Shown here piece after piece: positions 1,840 to 9,628 of a stretch of DNA of 21,158 nucleotides. Made by a program: the position numbers and the translations under genes. Below the pieces are notes generated by a model. The model did not search any database, was not told the DNA's origin, and saw only the letters and a program-made list of their open reading frames with translations. The stretch is from a virus, in the IMG/VR virus record IMGVR_UViG_3300020473_001319, positions 1-21,158 of that record. One strand, given 5' to 3'. Each line of letters begins with the position of its first letter. Positions within the stretch are counted from its first letter, which is position 1.

Positions 1840-2850
1840 ATGTCAATGTTTGCTGAATCATTATCAAAATATGGTATAAATCATCCTTTGATCATACCTC
1901 ACGAAAATACTAATGGTACTGCTTTGGCAAATCCTAGTATATTGAATTACAATGAAAAACTTTATATAAATATAAGGATGTTAAACTACACTCTTTATCA
2001 TTCCATAGGTGCTACAGAATGGATGGGTGAGGGTGGTAAGTATCAATCAAGATGGGGTCCTTTAACATATGTTCATCCAGAAAATGATCATAGACTTATT
2101 ACGGATAATTATTTAGGTGCGTGGAAAGAGAATCCAACTTTTAAAAAAATACATATGTCATTAGACCTTGATCCGATTTGGGATTTTGTAGGATTAGAGG
2201 ATGCTAGATTAGTAAATTGGGACAATAAAATATATGTTACGGGAGTTCGAAGAGATACAACAGAAAATGGTCAAGGAAGAATGGAGTTATCTGAGATAGT
2301 AGATTTAGAAAATAATCCAAGAGAAGTTTCAAGAGTAAGAATAGAACACCCAACAAATCCTGATGCTTATTGTGAAAAGAATTGGATGCCAGTTAGAGAT
2401 TTACCATTTCACTATATTATGGATTCGAATCCTACTAGATTAGTCAAAGCAGATCCTAAAACTGGAGAATGTCAATTGATAACAGTAGGAGAAAAATTAG
2501 ATATTAGTGGCAATATGAGGGGTTCTTCTCAACTGATAACACATAATGGTGGATATTTTGCTGTACTACACGATACTAATTGGTGGAGATTTGAGGGTAG
2601 ATGTGATGAAAACAAAGATGCTATATATAGTCACAGATTAGTACATTGGGATAAAAATTTTGTTGTACAAAGAGTTTCTAAACCATTTAGTTTTATGAAT
2701 GGACAGATAGAGTTTTGTTGTGGTATGGACAGACTCGAAGATTCTTTTTATATAACATTTGGATTTGAAGATAACTCAGCACATTTACTTGAAGTGAAGT
2801 GTGATGTTTTGGATAAATGGTTTGATAATAATTTGGAGTATAGTAAGTGA
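1840..2850 (+). CDS. GH130-like five-bladed beta-propeller protein
   Basis: This 336-aa protein shows repeated W/Y-rich beta-blade patterns and motifs typical of glycoside hydrolase family 130 and related propellers. They are GLEDARLV at 118-125, EKNWMPV at 179-185, a GSSQLI strand at 228-233, and a closing segment at 290-319 (IEFCCGMD ... YITFGFEDN). GH130 enzymes are mannosyl phosphorylases or hydrolases; related phage copies often sit beside glycosyltransferases. Whether this copy is catalytic is not certain: the Asp121 region is kept, but the other phosphate-binding residues cannot be assigned by eye. Start ATG 1840 has a GAGGG run about 10 bases upstream. The last 4 bases (GTGA) are shared with the start of the next gene. 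Alternative: a non-enzymatic glycan-binding propeller. Confidence 0.65.
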   Translation: MSMFAESLSKYGINHPLIIPHENTNGTALANPSILNYNEKLYINIRMLNYTLYHSIGATEWMGEGGKYQSRWGPLTYVHPENDHRLITDNYLGAWKENPTFKKIHMSLDLDPIWDFVGLEDARLVNWDNKIYVTGVRRDTTENGQGRMELSEIVDLENNPREVSRVRIEHPTNPDAYCEKNWMPVRDLPFHYIMDSNPTRLVKADPKTGECQLITVGEKLDISGNMRGSSQLITHNGGYFAVLHDTNWWRFEGRCDENKDAIYSHRLVHWDKNFVVQRVSKPFSFMNGQIEFCCGMDRLEDSFYITFGFEDNSAHLLEVKCDVLDKWFDNNLEYSK

Positions 2851-5138
2851 ATCTAAAAATAAAATCATTACTGGAAGATTATGGTAAAGACACTACCAAT
2901 ATACGAATTCAATTAGATTTAGCAAGAGAGTATTATGACGAAAAACAATATGCTTCTGCTATGTCATATTTGAATAGAATAGCGGAGATGTCCGATGATA
3001 GTAATATTGTATATGAGAGTTTATGTTTAGCTTCACAATGTTTTTTCTTTCAAGGAAATAGAAATATACATACTAAAGTTTGTTTGTATCACGCAATTAG
3101 TGTTTTGCCAAATAGACCAGAGGCTTATTACTTATTATCCAAAACGATGGAAATTGATGAACCATTTCAATGTTATAGTTACTGTACAATTGGTATAAGT
3201 CATAAAGATAATGCTAGAAGAGTAACAAAATTACCATTTGAGTATGATTATTATAGATTATTATTTCAGAAAGCTGTAAATGGGTGGCATGCTCAAAAAA
3301 TAGAAGAATCGCGAGAAATATTATATGATTTACATATGAATCATACGATGAATCCATTTTATACAGAGCTAGTTGTTTCTAATCTGAATAATATAGGATG
3401 GCCTGAAAAAAAAGAAGAATTAGAAAAACCTATATTGGAAGAAATTGTTCCTGATCCTGATGACATACCAAATATCGAAAGTGAACAGGCTAATCCTAAG
3501 TGGAGTGTAACCGAATTTCCTACATTAGAAATTACAACTGTTATACCAAAAAAAGGATGCGTAGTTGATTGTGTTTTTTGTCCACAAGAAATACTAAAAA
3601 AATCATATAATGATGAGATGTGGTATATGTCTATGGCTGATTTTAAAAGAGCTATTGATAAAGTACCGACAGAGGTTAGGATAATATTTTCAGGTTTCAT
3701 AGAACCATTTATGAACAAACACTGTTCTGATATGATGATATATGCTCATGAAAGGGGACATCCTGTTGCAGTATTTACTACGGCAGTTGGTATGACAATA
3801 GATGATGTTGAAAAAATAAAACATATACCATATGATGATGGTCCTAATGGTGGTTTTACATTACATTTACCTGATGAAGAACATCTGGCAAAACATCCTG
3901 TTACTAAACGATATATAGAAGTTATAAAGGCTATAAAAGAAGCTAACCTAAATAGTTTTTATTTGATGTCAATGGGTAAAGTTGATGATAAAATATTGGA
4001 TTTGAATCTTTGGTCTGAAGATGAGATTCATATACCACAAATGTGGTCTAGAGCTGGAAATTTGAGGGGTGAGGCTATGGTAAAGCCTGAACTCAGAAGA
4101 GTAGCTGGAAGAGTATCAGACGCTGCTAAGTTCAATGAAGAGAATTATAAAGATGTAGAGTTGACTTGTGGGTGTGTAGAAGATTTATATCATAATATTT
4201 TACTACCCAACGGTGATATATCTTTATGTTGTATGGATTATGGTCTTGATCATATTACTGGTAATTTATATGAACAATCATTTGAAGATGCTATACCTGA
4301 AAACAATCAATGCTTTGATTTATGTAGAAAATGTGAAAATGCGGTGCCTGTAAACGATAAAAAACAACTTACATTAGGTGATAAATTTATTCAGTCTCAG
4401 AAAACAGGAGATGGCAAAGTTACTAGAAAAGATCTTGGTAATTTACAAGATATACTAGATAAATCGGAGAAAAATGAAAAAAAATGGGGTGGAGACATTT
4501 ATTCTGCTAAAAAAGAAAAAGGTCAGTCTATGTATAGACTTACACAACCGATAGTTCGTCCAAGTAATAACCCAACTATAGTGGTGGTTGATAATTTTTT
4601 AGATAATCCAGATGAAGTTAGGCAAATAGCACTAAATATACCTAACAGTGAATATGAAAAGCGTGGTTCGGTTGGACTTAGGTCTAAACCTTATCCATAT
4701 GGAGAGGTTTATAGACCAGTATTTGAAGAGTTGTTGGGTATAAAAACTGAAGATGCTGAATGGGGTGGAGATGGTGGTACGCACGGATGTTACCAATGGT
4801 CTCCAGCATCAACTGGGCAAGTAGTTCATTGTGATGCCACAGATTGGGCTGCTGTTATTTTTCTAACTCCTGATGCACCACCTAGAACAGGTACTTGGTT
4901 GATGAAACATAAAGATACTGGTAAAAAAATGAGGGATGAGGGTCTTGATGATGTATTCATAGGTAATGAAGCACAATGGGACACACATCCATTTGAAAAA
5001 ATAGATGACATTGGAAATGTATATAACAGATTAATTTTATGGAATGGAAGACATTTACATACGGCTGGTTCATATTTTGGTGAATCAATTGATAATTCAA
5101 GGCTATATCAAGTCTTCTTTTTCAATGAAAAGAAATAA
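2847..5138 (+). CDS. TPR-like / radical SAM / SPASM-like / 2OG oxygenase fusion protein
   Basis: This 763-aa protein starts at GTG 2847, with GGAG at 2834-2837, and overlaps the upstream stop by four bases. Residues 1-190 are alternating helices resembling TPR units (for example LAREYYDEKQYASAMSYL). Residues 220-425 form a radical SAM core with the cluster motif Cys238-x3-Cys242-x2-Cys245 (GCVVDCVFCPQ). Residues 441-496 hold a second cysteine set (441, 443, 461, 462, 489, 493, 496) around LLPNGDISLCCMDY, as in SPASM domains that carry an auxiliary Fe-S cluster. After a charged linker, residues 568-760 look like a DUF6445-type 2OG oxygenase: IVVVDNFLDNPDEVRQIAL, His661-Cys-Asp663, His736/His738 and Arg752. 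Radical SAM/SPASM enzymes often modify peptides or sugars. The joined oxygenase suggests two successive oxidative steps on one substrate, which is an inference. Confidence 0.8.
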   Translation: MNLKIKSLLEDYGKDTTNIRIQLDLAREYYDEKQYASAMSYLNRIAEMSDDSNIVYESLCLASQCFFFQGNRNIHTKVCLYHAISVLPNRPEAYYLLSKTMEIDEPFQCYSYCTIGISHKDNARRVTKLPFEYDYYRLLFQKAVNGWHAQKIEESREILYDLHMNHTMNPFYTELVVSNLNNIGWPEKKEELEKPILEEIVPDPDDIPNIESEQANPKWSVTEFPTLEITTVIPKKGCVVDCVFCPQEILKKSYNDEMWYMSMADFKRAIDKVPTEVRIIFSGFIEPFMNKHCSDMMIYAHERGHPVAVFTTAVGMTIDDVEKIKHIPYDDGPNGGFTLHLPDEEHLAKHPVTKRYIEVIKAIKEANLNSFYLMSMGKVDDKILDLNLWSEDEIHIPQMWSRAGNLRGEAMVKPELRRVAGRVSDAAKFNEENYKDVELTCGCVEDLYHNILLPNGDISLCCMDYGLDHITGNLYEQSFEDAIPENNQCFDLCRKCENAVPVNDKKQLTLGDKFIQSQKTGDGKVTRKDLGNLQDILDKSEKNEKKWGGDIYSAKKEKGQSMYRLTQPIVRPSNNPTIVVVDNFLDNPDEVRQIALNIPNSEYEKRGSVGLRSKPYPYGEVYRPVFEELLGIKTEDAEWGGDGGTHGCYQWSPASTGQVVHCDATDWAAVIFLTPDAPPRTGTWLMKHKDTGKKMRDEGLDDVFIGNEAQWDTHPFEKIDDIGNVYNRLILWNGRHLHTAGSYFGESIDNSRLYQVFFFNEKK

Positions 5139-5152
5139 CATAGGAGTATAAT

Positions 5153-5446
5153 GTGAGTGATACAAACAAAGTAAGTGAAGAAGAACTAAAATCTATTACA
5201 GATTTGGGTGTAAAATACAATACTATAAGAGATAATTTTGGACAACTCAGAATTCAAAGGCTGTTAATTGAACAGCAATTGGAACAGATTGTGGAAAATG
5301 AAGATAAACTTGAACAAGATTATATTGAAACTCAGAAGATTGAAAGAGAATTATTAGAGAGTCTCAATAGCAAATATGGTCAGGGAGTGTTAAATCCACA
5401 GACTGGTGAATTTACACCTCGTAATACTGAAGAAGATCCAAAATAA
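5153..5446 (+). CDS. Small prefoldin-like coiled-coil protein of unknown function
   Basis: This is a 97-aa acidic protein. The GTG start at 5153 is preceded by AGGAG at 5142-5146 at good spacing; the ATG two bases earlier runs straight into TGA, so GTG is the likely start. Residues 8-75 are heptad-like and rich in Glu, Gln and Leu, with a break near 35-40, suggesting an antiparallel coiled coil. The C-terminus has a KYGQGVLNPQTGEFTP motif. Small proteins of this shape, with a KYG-G-L-x-GEF-P tail, are recalled from other marine T4-like phages as conserved hypotheticals. It has no cysteine and no leader-like tail, so it does not look like a substrate peptide of the preceding radical SAM enzyme. 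It lies between the enzyme cassette and the sheath gene. Confidence 0.75.
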   Translation: MSDTNKVSEEELKSITDLGVKYNTIRDNFGQLRIQRLLIEQQLEQIVENEDKLEQDYIETQKIERELLESLNSKYGQGVLNPQTGEFTPRNTEEDPK

Positions 5447-5530: not shown

Positions 5531-7981
5531 ATGGCAGAGAGAATTGTCAGTCCAGGTGTATTTACTCGTGAAAAAGATTTATCCTTTTTGCCTGCTGGAG
5601 TTGCGGCAATTGGAGCTGCTATTGTTGGTCCTACATTAAAAGGTCCTTCATTTGTTCCTACACAAATAAATACTTTTCAAGAGTTCGAAAATACTTTTGG
5701 TGGATATACCAAAAACTATTATACACCTTACACCGTAAGAGAATATTTAAGGTCTGCAGGTTCAGTAACCGTAGTCAGAGTTGGATATTTAGGCGGATAT
5801 AAAGCTAATGGAGTTAATTTGGTGATGAGTCGTTCAGCTGGAGCAGCTAAACAGGTAGTTGCAACATTTTTACCAGCTGTAAATAACACAGGTGGTGCTG
5901 TTTCAGCATCGCGTGGTAATGACTTTCATGCTGGTAACATTGATATAAACCTAATAGGTTCAAATGCTACTGCTAGTCTTACTAATCTAAGTATAATGGA
6001 AACAGCTGCTAATTCAGCTGATTACTTACCAAAGAAAGTCGATACAGATGCTAATATTCAAACAATCGATGGTACTTCAGCTCCACTTTACACTTATAAG
6101 TTCTTTAGAACTGCTGTATCACAATCAATCAAAGCTGGTTCTCTAGCTTCTGCAGCTAGTATGAGTATTGAAGTTCATGCTTCATCTGAATTTGATTTTG
6201 AAGGAGCTACTCAAAGTGTAAATGCCAGTACATATGTAACCACATTCAATGGAAGTAGTGGTGCTATGGCTGGACGCACACCTATGATTTTAGACCAAAA
6301 CAGTAATGAATTATTCAGACTCTATATGAGATCGGATGGTACTAATACTAATGATTATTATGTAGTAATAAAAGATGTAAAACAAGCTGCTAGTACAAAT
6401 GCTGCTGAAAATTATGCTGAATTTTCTTTACAACTTTATGATGTAGAGGGTAATCCTGTTGGTAATGAAATGACTCAATTGAATTTCGATCCTGCTTCAC
6501 CAACACATTTTGCTAAAGCAATTGGTGATCAATTTCAAGAAGTAGATAACGATGGAAATATAACAGTGCACGGAGACTATCCAAATCGACATGCTTGGCT
6601 TAGAGTGGGTGATGCTAACTATGATAACCTAAAAGCATCTAAAAATGCTCAACCAATGGGATTTTCTAAAGTATATGAACCCATTATTGCTACTGCTCAA
6701 GTACCTACTGGTTCAATAAATAGGGTACAAGAAAAGAACACTAATGTAGGAGCATATAATCCTGATGTTGCTTATGGATTTCAGTTGAATCCAAATCATT
6801 TTTCTGAAATTGATATAAATGATGCTAGACAATATCTGGCACCGATTCCAAAGGGTGCTGATACTGGAGTAAATGCTCACTTTCTATTAACAAATATGAA
6901 AGGGTTCGGTACTGGTGCTGATCTAACAACACTACAGACTCAATATGGTGCTGAGTTTGCTGGTTCTGCTACCAGTTTGAATATATCATCTTCTGCTGTA
7001 CAGTTGAAATTTGCTGTACCAATGCAGTATGGATTTGATGGTATAGCTCCAAACGCTCTTTTGAATACTGGTAATGATATAACAGCTGCTAATGTGATGG
7101 GATTTGATTGTAGTACTTCTGCTAAGAGTGGTTCTATTGCTTGGAGAAGGGCTATTAACTCTGTAAGTAATCCAGATGAGATAGATATTAATATGCTAGT
7201 AACACCTGGTGTAAATCATAGTCTACATCCATCAGTTACCAATCATGCAATAGATAAAGTTGAAGCTAGAGCTGATGCTTTTTATGTGATGGATGGTTCT
7301 TCTTGGGGAGACTCTGTTGCTGCAGCAATTAGTAATATCAAAACATTAGATACTAACTATGTTGGTACATATTATCCTTGGGTAAAGATAGATGATCCAG
7401 ATACTGGTGAGGGTGTGTGGGTGCCACCATCAGTAGTAATTCCTGGTGTTATTGCTTTTACAGATAATGTGGCGCACGAATGGTTTGCTCCTGCTGGATT
7501 AAATCGTGGTGGATTAGCTAGTGTAAGAATGGCTAAGAAAAAACTAACTCATACAGATAGAGATAGATTGTATGAGGGTCGTGTGAATCCGATTGCTACA
7601 TTTCCTGGTCAAGGTGTTGTGGTGTTTGGACAAAAAACATTACAAGCTAAACCATCTGCTCTTGATAGAATCAATGTAAGACGACTACTTATCAGATTGA
7701 AGAAATTTATTGCTTCTTCAAGTAGATTCTTAGTGTTCGAACAAAATGATAGTGCTACAAGAACTAGGTTCTTAAATATAGTGAATCCGTTCTTAGAATC
7801 AGTACAATCCAATAGTGGATTGTCAGCATTCAGAGTTGTAATGGATGAGTCTAACAACACACCTGATGTCATAGACAGAAATCAGTTAGTTGGACAGATA
7901 TTCATACAACCAACAAGAACTGCTGAGTTCATTGTATTGGACTTCTCAGTATTACCTACTGGGGCAGCATTTCCTGAATAA
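5531..7981 (+). CDS. Tail sheath protein (T4 gp18-like)
   Basis: This 816-aa protein forms the contractile outer tube of the tail. The N-terminus is characteristic: SPGVFTREKDLS, a small-residue segment AAIGAAIVGPTLKGP, then the FGGYTKNYYTPYTVREYL region with a VTVVRVG strand by residue 84. The C-terminus carries the conserved sheath core: NPIATFPGQGVVVFGQKTL, then INVRRLLIRLKKFI, and a final strand ending near ADF-type FIVLDFSVLPTG. The middle (about 90-600) is Ala/Ser/Thr/Asn-rich and variable, as expected for surface domains. T4 gp18 has 659 residues, so this one is clearly longer. ATG 5531 has an AAGGAG site at ideal spacing. A strong terminator follows directly, so the gene probably ends its transcript. 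Confidence 0.95.
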   Translation: MAERIVSPGVFTREKDLSFLPAGVAAIGAAIVGPTLKGPSFVPTQINTFQEFENTFGGYTKNYYTPYTVREYLRSAGSVTVVRVGYLGGYKANGVNLVMSRSAGAAKQVVATFLPAVNNTGGAVSASRGNDFHAGNIDINLIGSNATASLTNLSIMETAANSADYLPKKVDTDANIQTIDGTSAPLYTYKFFRTAVSQSIKAGSLASAASMSIEVHASSEFDFEGATQSVNASTYVTTFNGSSGAMAGRTPMILDQNSNELFRLYMRSDGTNTNDYYVVIKDVKQAASTNAAENYAEFSLQLYDVEGNPVGNEMTQLNFDPASPTHFAKAIGDQFQEVDNDGNITVHGDYPNRHAWLRVGDANYDNLKASKNAQPMGFSKVYEPIIATAQVPTGSINRVQEKNTNVGAYNPDVAYGFQLNPNHFSEIDINDARQYLAPIPKGADTGVNAHFLLTNMKGFGTGADLTTLQTQYGAEFAGSATSLNISSSAVQLKFAVPMQYGFDGIAPNALLNTGNDITAANVMGFDCSTSAKSGSIAWRRAINSVSNPDEIDINMLVTPGVNHSLHPSVTNHAIDKVEARADAFYVMDGSSWGDSVAAAISNIKTLDTNYVGTYYPWVKIDDPDTGEGVWVPPSVVIPGVIAFTDNVAHEWFAPAGLNRGGLASVRMAKKKLTHTDRDRLYEGRVNPIATFPGQGVVVFGQKTLQAKPSALDRINVRRLLIRLKKFIASSSRFLVFEQNDSATRTRFLNIVNPFLESVQSNSGLSAFRVVMDESNNTPDVIDRNQLVGQIFIQPTRTAEFIVLDFSVLPTGAAFPE

Positions 7982-8048: not shown

Positions 8049-8102
8049 AAAAACTATGAAAGAAAAGAGAAAATGATTTGAACGAAAATTCGATTTAGAT
8101 GA

Positions 8103-8110
8103 TATTTATA
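8103..8110 (+). promoter_or_regulatory. Candidate promoter element before the tube gene (TATTTATA)
   Basis: After the terminator, the tube gene needs its own promoter. The 111 bases between terminator and tube ATG hold GATATTTATATAC at 8101-8113, about 34-43 bases upstream of the start. The same ATATTTAT core recurs before the genes at 9866 and 20633. No matching -35 box is seen. The assignment rests on position and recurrence only. Confidence 0.35.
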
Positions 8111-8143
8111 TACGAAGAATTAAAAATTTATAGGAGAACTGAA

Positions 8144-8632
8144 ATGCCAGACTTAATAGATCCTTCAGAGATAATGTTCACTCCGTTTGAACCTAAACTA
8201 AAGAACAGGTTCATTATGTACATTGAAGGCGTTCCTGCTTACATTATAAAAAGTGGTAATAGACCACAAATAAATTTTGAAACCATTACTTTAGATCATA
8301 TCAATGTTCAAAGATATGTGAAAGGTAAAGGTGCGTGGCAAACATTGGAAATCACATTATATGATCCAATTGTACCATCTGGCGCACAAGCAGTAATGGA
8401 ATGGGTAAGATTATCACATGAATCTGTTACGGGTAGAGATGGATATTCAGATTTTTATAAAAAAGATGTTACTTTCAATATGTTAGGTCCTGTAGGAGAT
8501 AAAGTAGAAGAGTGGACATTGAAAGGTGCTTACATACAAGCAGCTAACTTTGGTAGTATCGATTGGTCTGTAAATGAACCAGCTGATATCACACTAACAC
8601 TACAATACGATTACGCTATCCTACAATTCTAA
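8144..8632 (+). CDS. Tail tube protein (T4 gp19-like)
   Basis: This is a 162-aa protein, against 163 in T4 gp19. It polymerises into the inner tube through which DNA passes. Recognisable features are the opening EIMFTPFEPKLKNRFIMYIEGVPAYIIK, the strand pair ITLDHINVQRYVKGKGAWQTLEITLYDPI, a VMEWVRLSHE helix and a closing DITLTLQYDYAIL strand. An in-frame ATG at 8099 would add 15 residues, but ATG 8144 has AGGAG at 8132-8136 with 7-base spacing and gives the family length, so it is preferred. The sheath precedes it across a terminator, and a small membrane protein follows after 9 bases with its own AAGGAG. Confidence 0.93.
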   Translation: MPDLIDPSEIMFTPFEPKLKNRFIMYIEGVPAYIIKSGNRPQINFETITLDHINVQRYVKGKGAWQTLEITLYDPIVPSGAQAVMEWVRLSHESVTGRDGYSDFYKKDVTFNMLGPVGDKVEEWTLKGAYIQAANFGSIDWSVNEPADITLTLQYDYAILQF

Positions 8633-8884: not shown

Positions 8885-9628
8885 ATGGCTGAAGTCAAAT
8901 TTCCCACAGAAGTGGTAGATTTGCCGTCAAGAGGATTATTATATCCAAAAGATAATCCAATGTCTAGCGGTAAAATTGAGATAAGATATATGACAGCAAA
9001 GGATGAAGATATTCTAACTTCACCCAATCTAATAAAACAAGGTATTGTTGTTGATAAATTATTAGAAAGCATTGTTGTAGATAAAAGTATAAATTTAAAT
9101 GAAATGTTATTAGGAGACAAAAATGCTCTTCTTATAGCGGCTAGAATATTAGCATATGGAAAGGATTATAAAGTCAAAGTTGGTGATGAAGATATAGTTA
9201 TTGATTTGACTAAACTAAAAGATAAATTTTTAGATGAGAAATTAGTTGTGAATGGTAATTTATTTGAGTATGAGTTACCTATGACTAAAGTGAAAGTACA
9301 ATTCAAATTCATAACTTCAGCTGAAGAAAATTCAGTACAAAAAGAAGTAGAGGGATTGATGAAAATAAGTGGTGGTGTATCTTTTACTTTGACTACCAGA
9401 ATGAAACATCAGATAGTGTCAGTAGGTGGGAATGCAGATAGAGCTTATATAAATGATTTTGTAGACAATCAACTTTTATCACGTGACGCTATTTCACTTA
9501 GAGGTCACATTGAAGACATTTCTCCTGATGTCGATATGAGCTGGGAATACACAGACAGTACAGGAGAAAGGAGGGAAACAACGGTCCCGATGACCGTTCA
9601 GTTTCTTTGGCCTACCGCTAGAATATAA
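8885..9628 (+). CDS. T4 gp26-like baseplate hub / tail assembly protein
   Basis: This 247-aa protein matches the T4_baseplate family (PF12322, gp26-like) as recalled: VVDLPSRGLLYPKDNPMSSGKIEIRYMTAKDEDIL at the N-terminus, a LLESIV helix, and at the C-terminus a D-LSRDAISLRGHI region ending with PMTVQFLWP. ATG 8885 has AGGAG about 7 bases upstream. In phage tails such proteins help assemble the hub or chaperone the tape measure. The last 35 bases overlap an open frame in +1 that continues 172 bases past the stop, so part of the product may be extended by frameshifting. T4 gp26 has about 208 residues, so this copy is slightly longer. Confidence 0.8.
   Translation: MAEVKFPTEVVDLPSRGLLYPKDNPMSSGKIEIRYMTAKDEDILTSPNLIKQGIVVDKLLESIVVDKSINLNEMLLGDKNALLIAARILAYGKDYKVKVGDEDIVIDLTKLKDKFLDEKLVVNGNLFEYELPMTKVKVQFKFITSAEENSVQKEVEGLMKISGGVSFTLTTRMKHQIVSVGGNADRAYINDFVDNQLLSRDAISLRGHIEDISPDVDMSWEYTDSTGERRETTVPMTVQFLWPTARI
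9580..9598 (+). promoter_or_regulatory. Hairpin upstream of a possible +1 frameshift site
   Basis: A perfect 7-bp inverted repeat, AACGGTC (9580-9586) with GACCGTT (9592-9598), has a 5-base loop. It lies 3 bases before TTT-C (9602-9605) and after a GGAGGG run (9570-9575). The local GC content is higher than in its surroundings. Together these could stimulate ribosome slippage, but function is inferred only. Confidence 0.4.

Follow-up and report, generated by a model that had tools for sequence, protein, structure and literature searches.

What chemistry might a phage carry out with a single protein that joins a TPR-like arm, a radical SAM domain and a domain of the 2-oxoglutarate (2OG) oxygenase type? 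Such a protein is encoded in the stretch of DNA analyzed here, referred to as the window. It comprises 21,158 bases of the virus record IMGVR_UViG_3300020473_001319 and has a T4-type tail module according to PHROGs. With moderate confidence, this fusion protein can be read as an enzyme with several domains on a scaffold, belonging to a phage cassette that builds or modifies glycans. The gene and its parts are as follows.

2847–5138, + strand: fusion gene, TPR – radical SAM/twitch – linker – DUF6445, 763 aa
2847–3416, + strand: TPR scaffold, residues 1–190 (model, OGT TPR match)
3519–4046, + strand: radical SAM core, about residues 225–400 (Pfam Radical_SAM 8.2e-9, BtrN fold)
3558–3581, + strand: CxxxCxxC motif, Cys238/242/245 (invariant in 25/25 aligned radical SAM domains)
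4167–4334, + strand: putative auxiliary Fe-S (twitch/SPASM-type) Cys set, Cys441/461/462/493/496 (invariant in 25/25 aligned radical SAM domains)
4575–5135, + strand: DUF6445 domain of 2OG-oxygenase-type fold, residues 577–763 (Pfam, PHROG, predicted fold)
4827–4835, + strand: HxD, His661–Asp663, predicted Fe ligands (Asp663 in 28/28 and His661 in 27/28 DUF6445 domains)
5058–5060, + strand: His738, predicted third Fe ligand (28/28 DUF6445 domains)
5100–5102, + strand: Arg752, predicted 2OG anchor (28/28 DUF6445 domains)

The open reading frame (ORF) starts with GTG and overlaps the stop of the upstream gene by 4 bases. The ATG starts of its relatives align with this GTG. The complete order of TPR, radical SAM and DUF6445 is seen in four distinct loci including the window, and in a further copy (L013) the contig ends inside the gene. 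The window protein shows 72–73% identity to the three other complete copies. This recurrence in distinct loci indicates that the fusion is not an assembly error. The AlphaFold2 model of the fusion protein, based on 51 sequences, has a mean predicted local distance difference test score (pLDDT) of 81.4 and a predicted template modeling score (pTM) of 0.48. Judged by the latter, the domains of the model can be used individually, but not their arrangement relative to each other. Predicted models were compared by VIA-align (Z, aligned residues and root-mean-square deviation, rmsd) and Foldseek. The initial annotation of this DNA had proposed one phage chain with TPR-like, radical SAM and 2OG-oxygenase-type parts and a second Cys set. 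Pfam, invariant residues and predicted folds agree with that proposal. The residues it named (Cys238/242/245, the 441–496 Cys set, HxD at 661–663 and Arg752) are correctly positioned and conserved, and both the radical SAM core and the C-terminal oxygenase fold are supported by domain search and structure prediction.

The radical SAM part passes its Pfam threshold with 36.3 bits (cut-off 29.5, E 8.2e-9). Residues 216–500 of the model align with BtrN (4m7t) at Z 15.9, with 217 aligned residues and an rmsd of 3.3. The top Foldseek row for the fusion model is DesII (8hzv, 4.7e-6), and anSME, AspH and OGFOD1 are also among the matches. The SPASM family stays below its cut-off in the fusion protein (19.6 bits versus 21.5) and exceeds it in relatives (e.g., 26.7). 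The Cys set for two SPASM clusters is incomplete, with no Cys in residues 497–576. The twitch-type pattern for a single cluster is CX9-15GX4C followed by CX2C, which corresponds here to C441-X14-G456-X4-C461 and C493-X2-C496. Thus the Cys spacing fits one putative auxiliary cluster of the twitch type, as in BtrN, better than a full SPASM domain. The same part of the protein shows a weak similarity to RlmN (phmmer E 0.15, profile E 0.052), from which modification of RNA or another nucleic acid could be proposed. These E-values are at chance level, RlmN is missing from the list obtained with the 25-sequence profile, and the partners of the protein are of glycan type, so that such a function is highly improbable.

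The C-terminal part is recognized as DUF6445 by Pfam (26.5 bits, passing the cut-off of 24; E 7.6e-6), and a sequence search of it against PDB gave chance matches only. In structure, this part (ranges from 504–536 to 763) resembles the prolyl hydroxylase 6ey1 (Z 15.5) and PHD2 (6yw3, Z 15.3). It also matches phrog_1644 at 6e-26, a family labeled "minor coat protein", and the label, which RefSeq cyanophage records carry as well, is at odds with the oxygenase fold. If taken literally, the label would make the C-terminus a virion component. The fold and the conserved Fe and 2OG residues make this scarcely credible, and the label was probably inherited.

The TPR part is modeled with a pLDDT of about 90–98 over residues 1–180. 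Residues 1–197 align with the OGT TPR (7yeh) at Z 16.3 (170 aligned residues, rmsd 3.5), and Foldseek finds the consensus TPR 8chy at 1.1e-5. As the tool itself notes, Z is weak evidence for helical repeats, for which middling values are common. The BtrN and hydroxylase matches of the model are thus given more weight than the TPR match. In the fusion protein TPR_19 reaches 16.6 bits, below the cut-off of 25, and in relatives the TPR Pfam cut-off is exceeded (e.g., 31.7 in L117). The Pfam domains in 88 TPR proteins include FkbM (17), Radical_SAM (17), Methyltransf_24 (10), DUF6445 (9), GT2 (4), GT25 (4) and WavE (2), and matches to GT17, GT25 and GT2 are seen in single cassette chains. Among the top BFVD rows for the fusion model are a Satyrvirus GT2-like protein as well as FkbM methyltransferases and glycosyltransferases of phages. 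The fusion protein itself contains no glycosyltransferase domain match in Pfam.

The gene immediately upstream belongs to the same unit as the fusion gene.

1840–2850, + strand: partner gene, five-bladed propeller of predicted GH130-type fold, 336 aa (4-base overlap with the fusion gene)

Its model (pLDDT 90.3) aligns best with mannosylglucose phosphorylase 5ay9 (Z 24.9, 272 aligned residues, rmsd 3.0), compared with Z 18.9 for Leishmania GDP-mannose transferases and at most 18.2 for GH43 enzymes; Foldseek places it with GH130 at 7.7e-10. Glu120, Asp121 and Arg123 do not vary across 78 sequences. This Glu-Asp-x-Arg stretch aligns with Glu-Asp-Pro-Arg of 7fip, with the Pro not retained.

The fusion is one product of a widespread mosaic cassette. 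Scans of IMG/VR yielded 221 radical SAM relatives, at least 569 propeller relatives and at least 598 sheath relatives. The best 80 of each were kept, and the frequencies given here accordingly describe near relatives. Merging of near-copies reduced 248 loci to 184 groups, and domains were called with home-made profiles, using complete ORFs only for domain orders. The parts of the cassette are the GH130-fold propeller, TPR, radical SAM, DUF6445, an FkbM methyltransferase and an unclassified domain. Complete ORFs of environmental phages combine them in 16 multi-domain orders, of which examples follow. The order of the window protein (TPR, radical SAM and DUF6445) is seen in 4 groups, and TPR and DUF6445 alone in 1. 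Propeller, FkbM and radical SAM are joined in 10 groups; TPR, FkbM and radical SAM in 8; propeller and radical SAM in 4; and TPR and the unclassified domain in 40. Propeller and DUF6445, propeller and TPR, and radical SAM and FkbM are found in 1 group each. Pairing propeller, TPR, radical SAM, DUF6445 and FkbM gives ten combinations, of which these profiles show nine fused somewhere. The tenth pair, DUF6445 and FkbM, was not seen by these profiles among complete ORFs. In a protein of 987 aa (L034:6831-9794), FkbM (44.2 bits, cut-off 22.7) and DUF6445 (23 bits, just under the Pfam cut-off of 24) occupy opposite ends, and GT25 and GT17 have weak matches.

With radical SAM as the seed, groups that have 3 kb of flank on either side contain propeller and TPR within 4 kb in 28/28 each and DUF6445 in 15/28. 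The propeller-seeded groups contain TPR in 43/44, radical SAM in 12/44 and DUF6445 in 11/44. On the propeller tree (92 rows, quick method, 12 loci with short flanks left out), the distribution of radical SAM requires 12 changes (8 or more judged by starred branches) versus 30.9 after shuffling, and that of DUF6445 requires 9. The nearest row to the window by tree path is L003, whose protein has TPR joined to DUF6445 by a short linker, without a radical SAM domain. Isolates are represented by Synechococcus phage DSL-LC02, which has a TPR-FkbM-radical SAM chain and an overlapping gene of its own for DUF6445, and by Synechococcus phage S-SCSM2R, where TPR occurs with the unclassified domain and DUF6445. 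Among 50,697 phage records only 3 have the propeller, and the third of these copies shows 22.8% identity. This distant copy, in Actinomycetia phage DSL-LC01 (L174:4382-6912), adjoins a methyltransferase plus TauD-type dioxygenase gene.

These distributions bear on two proposals of the initial annotation. The exact architecture is real and recurs in metagenomic phages surveyed for the domain order, and is at the same time a narrow view, as one of 16 orders. The initial annotation took the coupling of both chemistries in one chain as a hint of a two-step modification. A covalent link between the steps is not required, because oxygenase and radical SAM domains are often separate genes of one operon and L003 has no radical SAM domain.

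Which substrate would be modified? The initial annotation leaned toward peptides. Sugar chemistry is favored here, because the nearest solved radical SAM folds act on an aminocyclitol (BtrN) and a nucleotide sugar (DesII), and because the partners are of glycan type. The domains of TPR proteins, the neighborhoods of DUF6445 and the loci found by a genome scan together point the same way. As for DUF6445 neighborhoods of cyanophages, five were examined among 26 listed records, and glycosyltransferase genes flank the homologues in S-SSM7 and Sf-FS3. The genome scan, a non-exhaustive search with two peptide patterns, found three loci: an Acidimicrobiia fragment, a WOR-3 contig and an Omnitrophota gene. 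The neighbors of the Omnitrophota relative, read by eye, resemble sulfotransferases and glycosyltransferases; no propeller was found in that genome by a search without positive control.

On the favored reading, glycan tailoring by such a cassette would proceed as follows. The modeled TPR arm probably holds the substrate or a partner. The propeller, from its predicted fold, may handle a beta-mannoside-type residue as a transferase or phosphorylase. The radical SAM domain would use the 5'-deoxyadenosyl radical to oxidize or rearrange a sugar carbon, like BtrN on its cyclitol, and DUF6445 would hydroxylate the same or a neighboring unit with Fe(II), O2 and 2-oxoglutarate. In other phages these slots are occupied by FkbM methyltransferases or glycosyltransferases, and the cassette would thus act as a kit of interchangeable modules for tailoring. 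What it makes would be displayed either on the phage tail fibers or on the host surface.

Several observations weigh against this reading. The best structural matches of DUF6445 are protein hydroxylases rather than sugar enzymes. Sequence matches to BtrN and DesII are weak (E 0.0086 and 0.099), and the mutual placement of the domains in the fusion model is uncertain (pTM 0.48). In the stretches viewed of S-WAM2, P-SSM2 and S-SSM4, no annotated glycosyltransferase is near DUF6445, and its neighbors there are fiber or replication-type genes. The window proteins that were scanned, a subset of the ORFs, gave no glycosyltransferase besides the propeller. The window propeller has no Pfam match at E up to 1, its relatives score at best 21.4 for GH130, below the cut-off of 26, and the lone PDB sequence match (7fip, E 0.22) is lost with a larger alignment of 78 rows, which gave no GH130 chain and one chance antibody match. 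Since the relatives fall under the Pfam cut-off, the propeller is called GH130-fold here and not a GH130 member.

The cassette tends to be placed after tail-fiber genes; the window itself is truncated before reaching any fiber gene. In 32/76 groups, a collagen-like run (at least 10 Gly-X-Y) is located upstream of the propeller at a distance of up to 3 kb, compared with 7/99 downstream of the propeller and 2/29 upstream of control sheath genes (Fisher p 3e-8 and 4e-4, respectively). The sheath controls are 80 loci, all without the cassette, perhaps since records near those already collected were excluded, and serve as a fiber-neighbor control only; 29 of the 70 distinct loci have 3 kb upstream. 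Pfam matches in 140 upstream protein fragments include Collagen (15), the S74 chaperone (11) and 2OG-FeII_Oxy_3 (9), and tail fiber families head the PHROG list.

A collagen prolyl hydroxylase binds its polypeptide by a TPR-type peptide-binding domain. By the same logic, a structural protein of the phage, such as a collagen-like tail fiber, could have its side chains hydroxylated and then altered by the radical SAM domain while the TPR arm binds the polypeptide. The resemblance of the DUF6445 model to prolyl hydroxylases, the OGT match of the TPR part, AspH among the Foldseek matches and the upstream collagen-like runs are all consistent with this. However, DUF6445 is not commoner beside collagen-like fibers: a run is present upstream in 8/27 DUF6445 loci versus 20/40 without DUF6445 (p 0.13), and this co-occurrence test gave collagen no support as the oxygenase substrate. 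As the two do not go together, fiber adjacency alone does not identify what is modified. Thr and Gln are abundant in the repeats, with Thr at 35% of X and 30% of Y and Pro at only 8% of X. Such Thr-rich, Pro-poor repeats would suit O-glycosylation better than prolyl hydroxylation. Modification of protein side chains also leaves the propeller, the methyltransferases and the glycosyltransferases unexplained, and it appears rather unlikely.

Even if the substrate is a glycan, its carrier could differ. One possibility, to be held tentatively, is that the cassette alters the O-antigen or another surface polysaccharide of the host during infection, for example to block other phages, and leaves the virion unmodified. 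The available part of PMC7029224 proposes this for glycosyltransferases of the tail-fiber hypervariable region of pelagimyophages, where radical SAM cassettes vary too. The lipopolysaccharide (LPS)-type families WavE and GT25 in TPR proteins are compatible with such a role. The position behind fiber genes and near late structural genes, however, fits virion modification at least equally well. In a similarly tentative scenario of glycan tailoring, T4-like aquatic phages might swap radical SAM, oxygenase, methyltransferase and glycosyltransferase modules on a TPR scaffold and thereby put unusual sugars on their own tail fibers. The adsorption surface would then be diversified chemically and not by sequence.

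The remaining features of the window lie on both sides of the unit.

3–344, + strand: 3'-terminal part of another 2OG-Fe(II) oxygenase gene, truncated at the contig end (Pfam 2OG-FeII_Oxy_5 6.7e-8)
344–1837, + strand: gene with two 2OG-oxygenase-like domains by reading PHROG families and motifs by eye (phrog_2954 4.6e-39, phrog_2297 4.9e-10)
5531–7981: sheath (PHROGs)
8099–8632: tube (PHROGs)
8885–9628: baseplate hub (PHROGs)
Right end of the window: ThyX (Pfam)

The gene at 344–1837 is possibly part of the same cluster as the propeller and fusion genes. It has no Pfam match at E up to 1, and PHROGs labels it "ferrochelatase" and "DNA endonuclease". Together with 3–344 and DUF6445, at least four oxygenase-type domains are present in 5.2 kb. 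A gene of 81 aa is found immediately 5' of the propeller in three close relatives (L002:5681-5926, L004:5671-5916 and L011:4057-4302) and is not there in the window; the copies of L002 and L004 contain a CPTC motif. A conserved 97-aa gene at 5153–5446 was considered as the short precursor peptide expected beside a peptide-acting RiPP maturase and rejected, being found in 74/80 control sheath loci without the cassette. Among 2604 phage records, the closest match to the window sheath comes from Microcystis phage Mel-JY01, with 44.6% identity.

Some observations concern other loci. The unclassified domain, of about 205 residues, lies between TPR and later domains (L007:12583-13212 and relatives, 57 groups). 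Its reading as a second FkbM methyltransferase, "FkbM2", is not supported: the domain has no Pfam match in the five proteins scanned (L017, L090, L139, L151 and L117), with a Pfam methyltransferase in 0/5, and hhalign against the FkbM set gives 0.7% probability. A stand-alone relative of the radical SAM domain (L008:6001-6741) lies between head genes in a virus that is assigned to Methanomicrobiales (vir524). In the WOR-3 "chromosome" (L176:7965-11716), the radical SAM gene adjoins a T4-type DNA polymerase-like gene, recognized by eye, with an N stretch nearby; this locus is probably phage sequence in a bin.

The fusion brings oxygen-dependent and oxygen-sensitive radical chemistry into one chain of an environmental phage. 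The cassette gives a context to DUF6445 and to phage BtrN-like radical SAM enzymes, both without assigned function here. As nearly all pairs of parts are fused in some phage, a joint pathway is directly testable. The cassette also bears on the question of whether phages glycosylate their own fibers or rewrite the host surface.

How does this cassette compare with known systems? The parts are of known kinds. BtrN (2-deoxy-scyllo-inosamine dehydrogenase, 4m7t) and DesII (8hzv) share the radical SAM fold, and BtrN also the auxiliary-cluster stretch. Both are single enzymes of antibiotic pathways, with low sequence similarity to the window protein, and neither is fused to TPR or an oxygenase. GH130 mannoside phosphorylases and the Leishmania MPT mannosyltransferases (6q4z) have the propeller fold in common with the partner, whose Glu-Asp-x-Arg corresponds to Glu-Asp-Pro-Arg of 7fip. 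The partner differs in being under the Pfam cut-off for GH130 and in not keeping the Pro.

A full-text literature search, mostly outside subscription journals, found no paper on the TPR/radical SAM/DUF6445 architecture and none on DUF6445, in line with the initial annotation, which knew of no described system with this exact architecture. In the literature searched, nothing seems to describe the combinatorial use of the parts on a TPR scaffold together with a GH130-fold partner. An excerpt of PMC5332604 reports 12 radical SAM genes in one T4-like genome. In the accessible portion of PMC7029224, the pelagimyophage tail-fiber hypervariable region contains radical SAM gene cassettes and LPS glycosyltransferases, and a change of the host O-chain is proposed. 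It resembles the present cassette in the marine T4-like phages, the variable fiber-side genes and the exchangeable radical SAM and glycan cassettes. That portion describes no fusion, GH130-fold partner, DUF6445 or radical SAM mechanism.

Mimivirus L230 joins a lysyl hydroxylase and a glycosyltransferase acting on viral collagen (excerpts of PMC9546862 and PMC9614988). Like the fusion protein, it is a viral chain linking a hydroxylase to another modifying enzyme, in a setting of collagen-like viral proteins. It belongs to a giant virus, the excerpts mention neither radical SAM nor TPR, and its pairing of hydroxylase and glycosyltransferase has no counterpart in the window protein, in which Pfam finds no glycosyltransferase domain. 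A064R of the chlorovirus PBCV-1, a single chain that unites a methyltransferase with two glycosyltransferases, builds the capsid glycan (excerpt of PMC9614988). It is likewise a multi-domain viral chain that strings glycan-building and methylating domains together, and as described there it has no radical chemistry and no oxygenase. Both proteins are likened here by description and not by sequence. As analogies, mimivirus L230 and chlorovirus A064R would be the nearest working models for the cassette.

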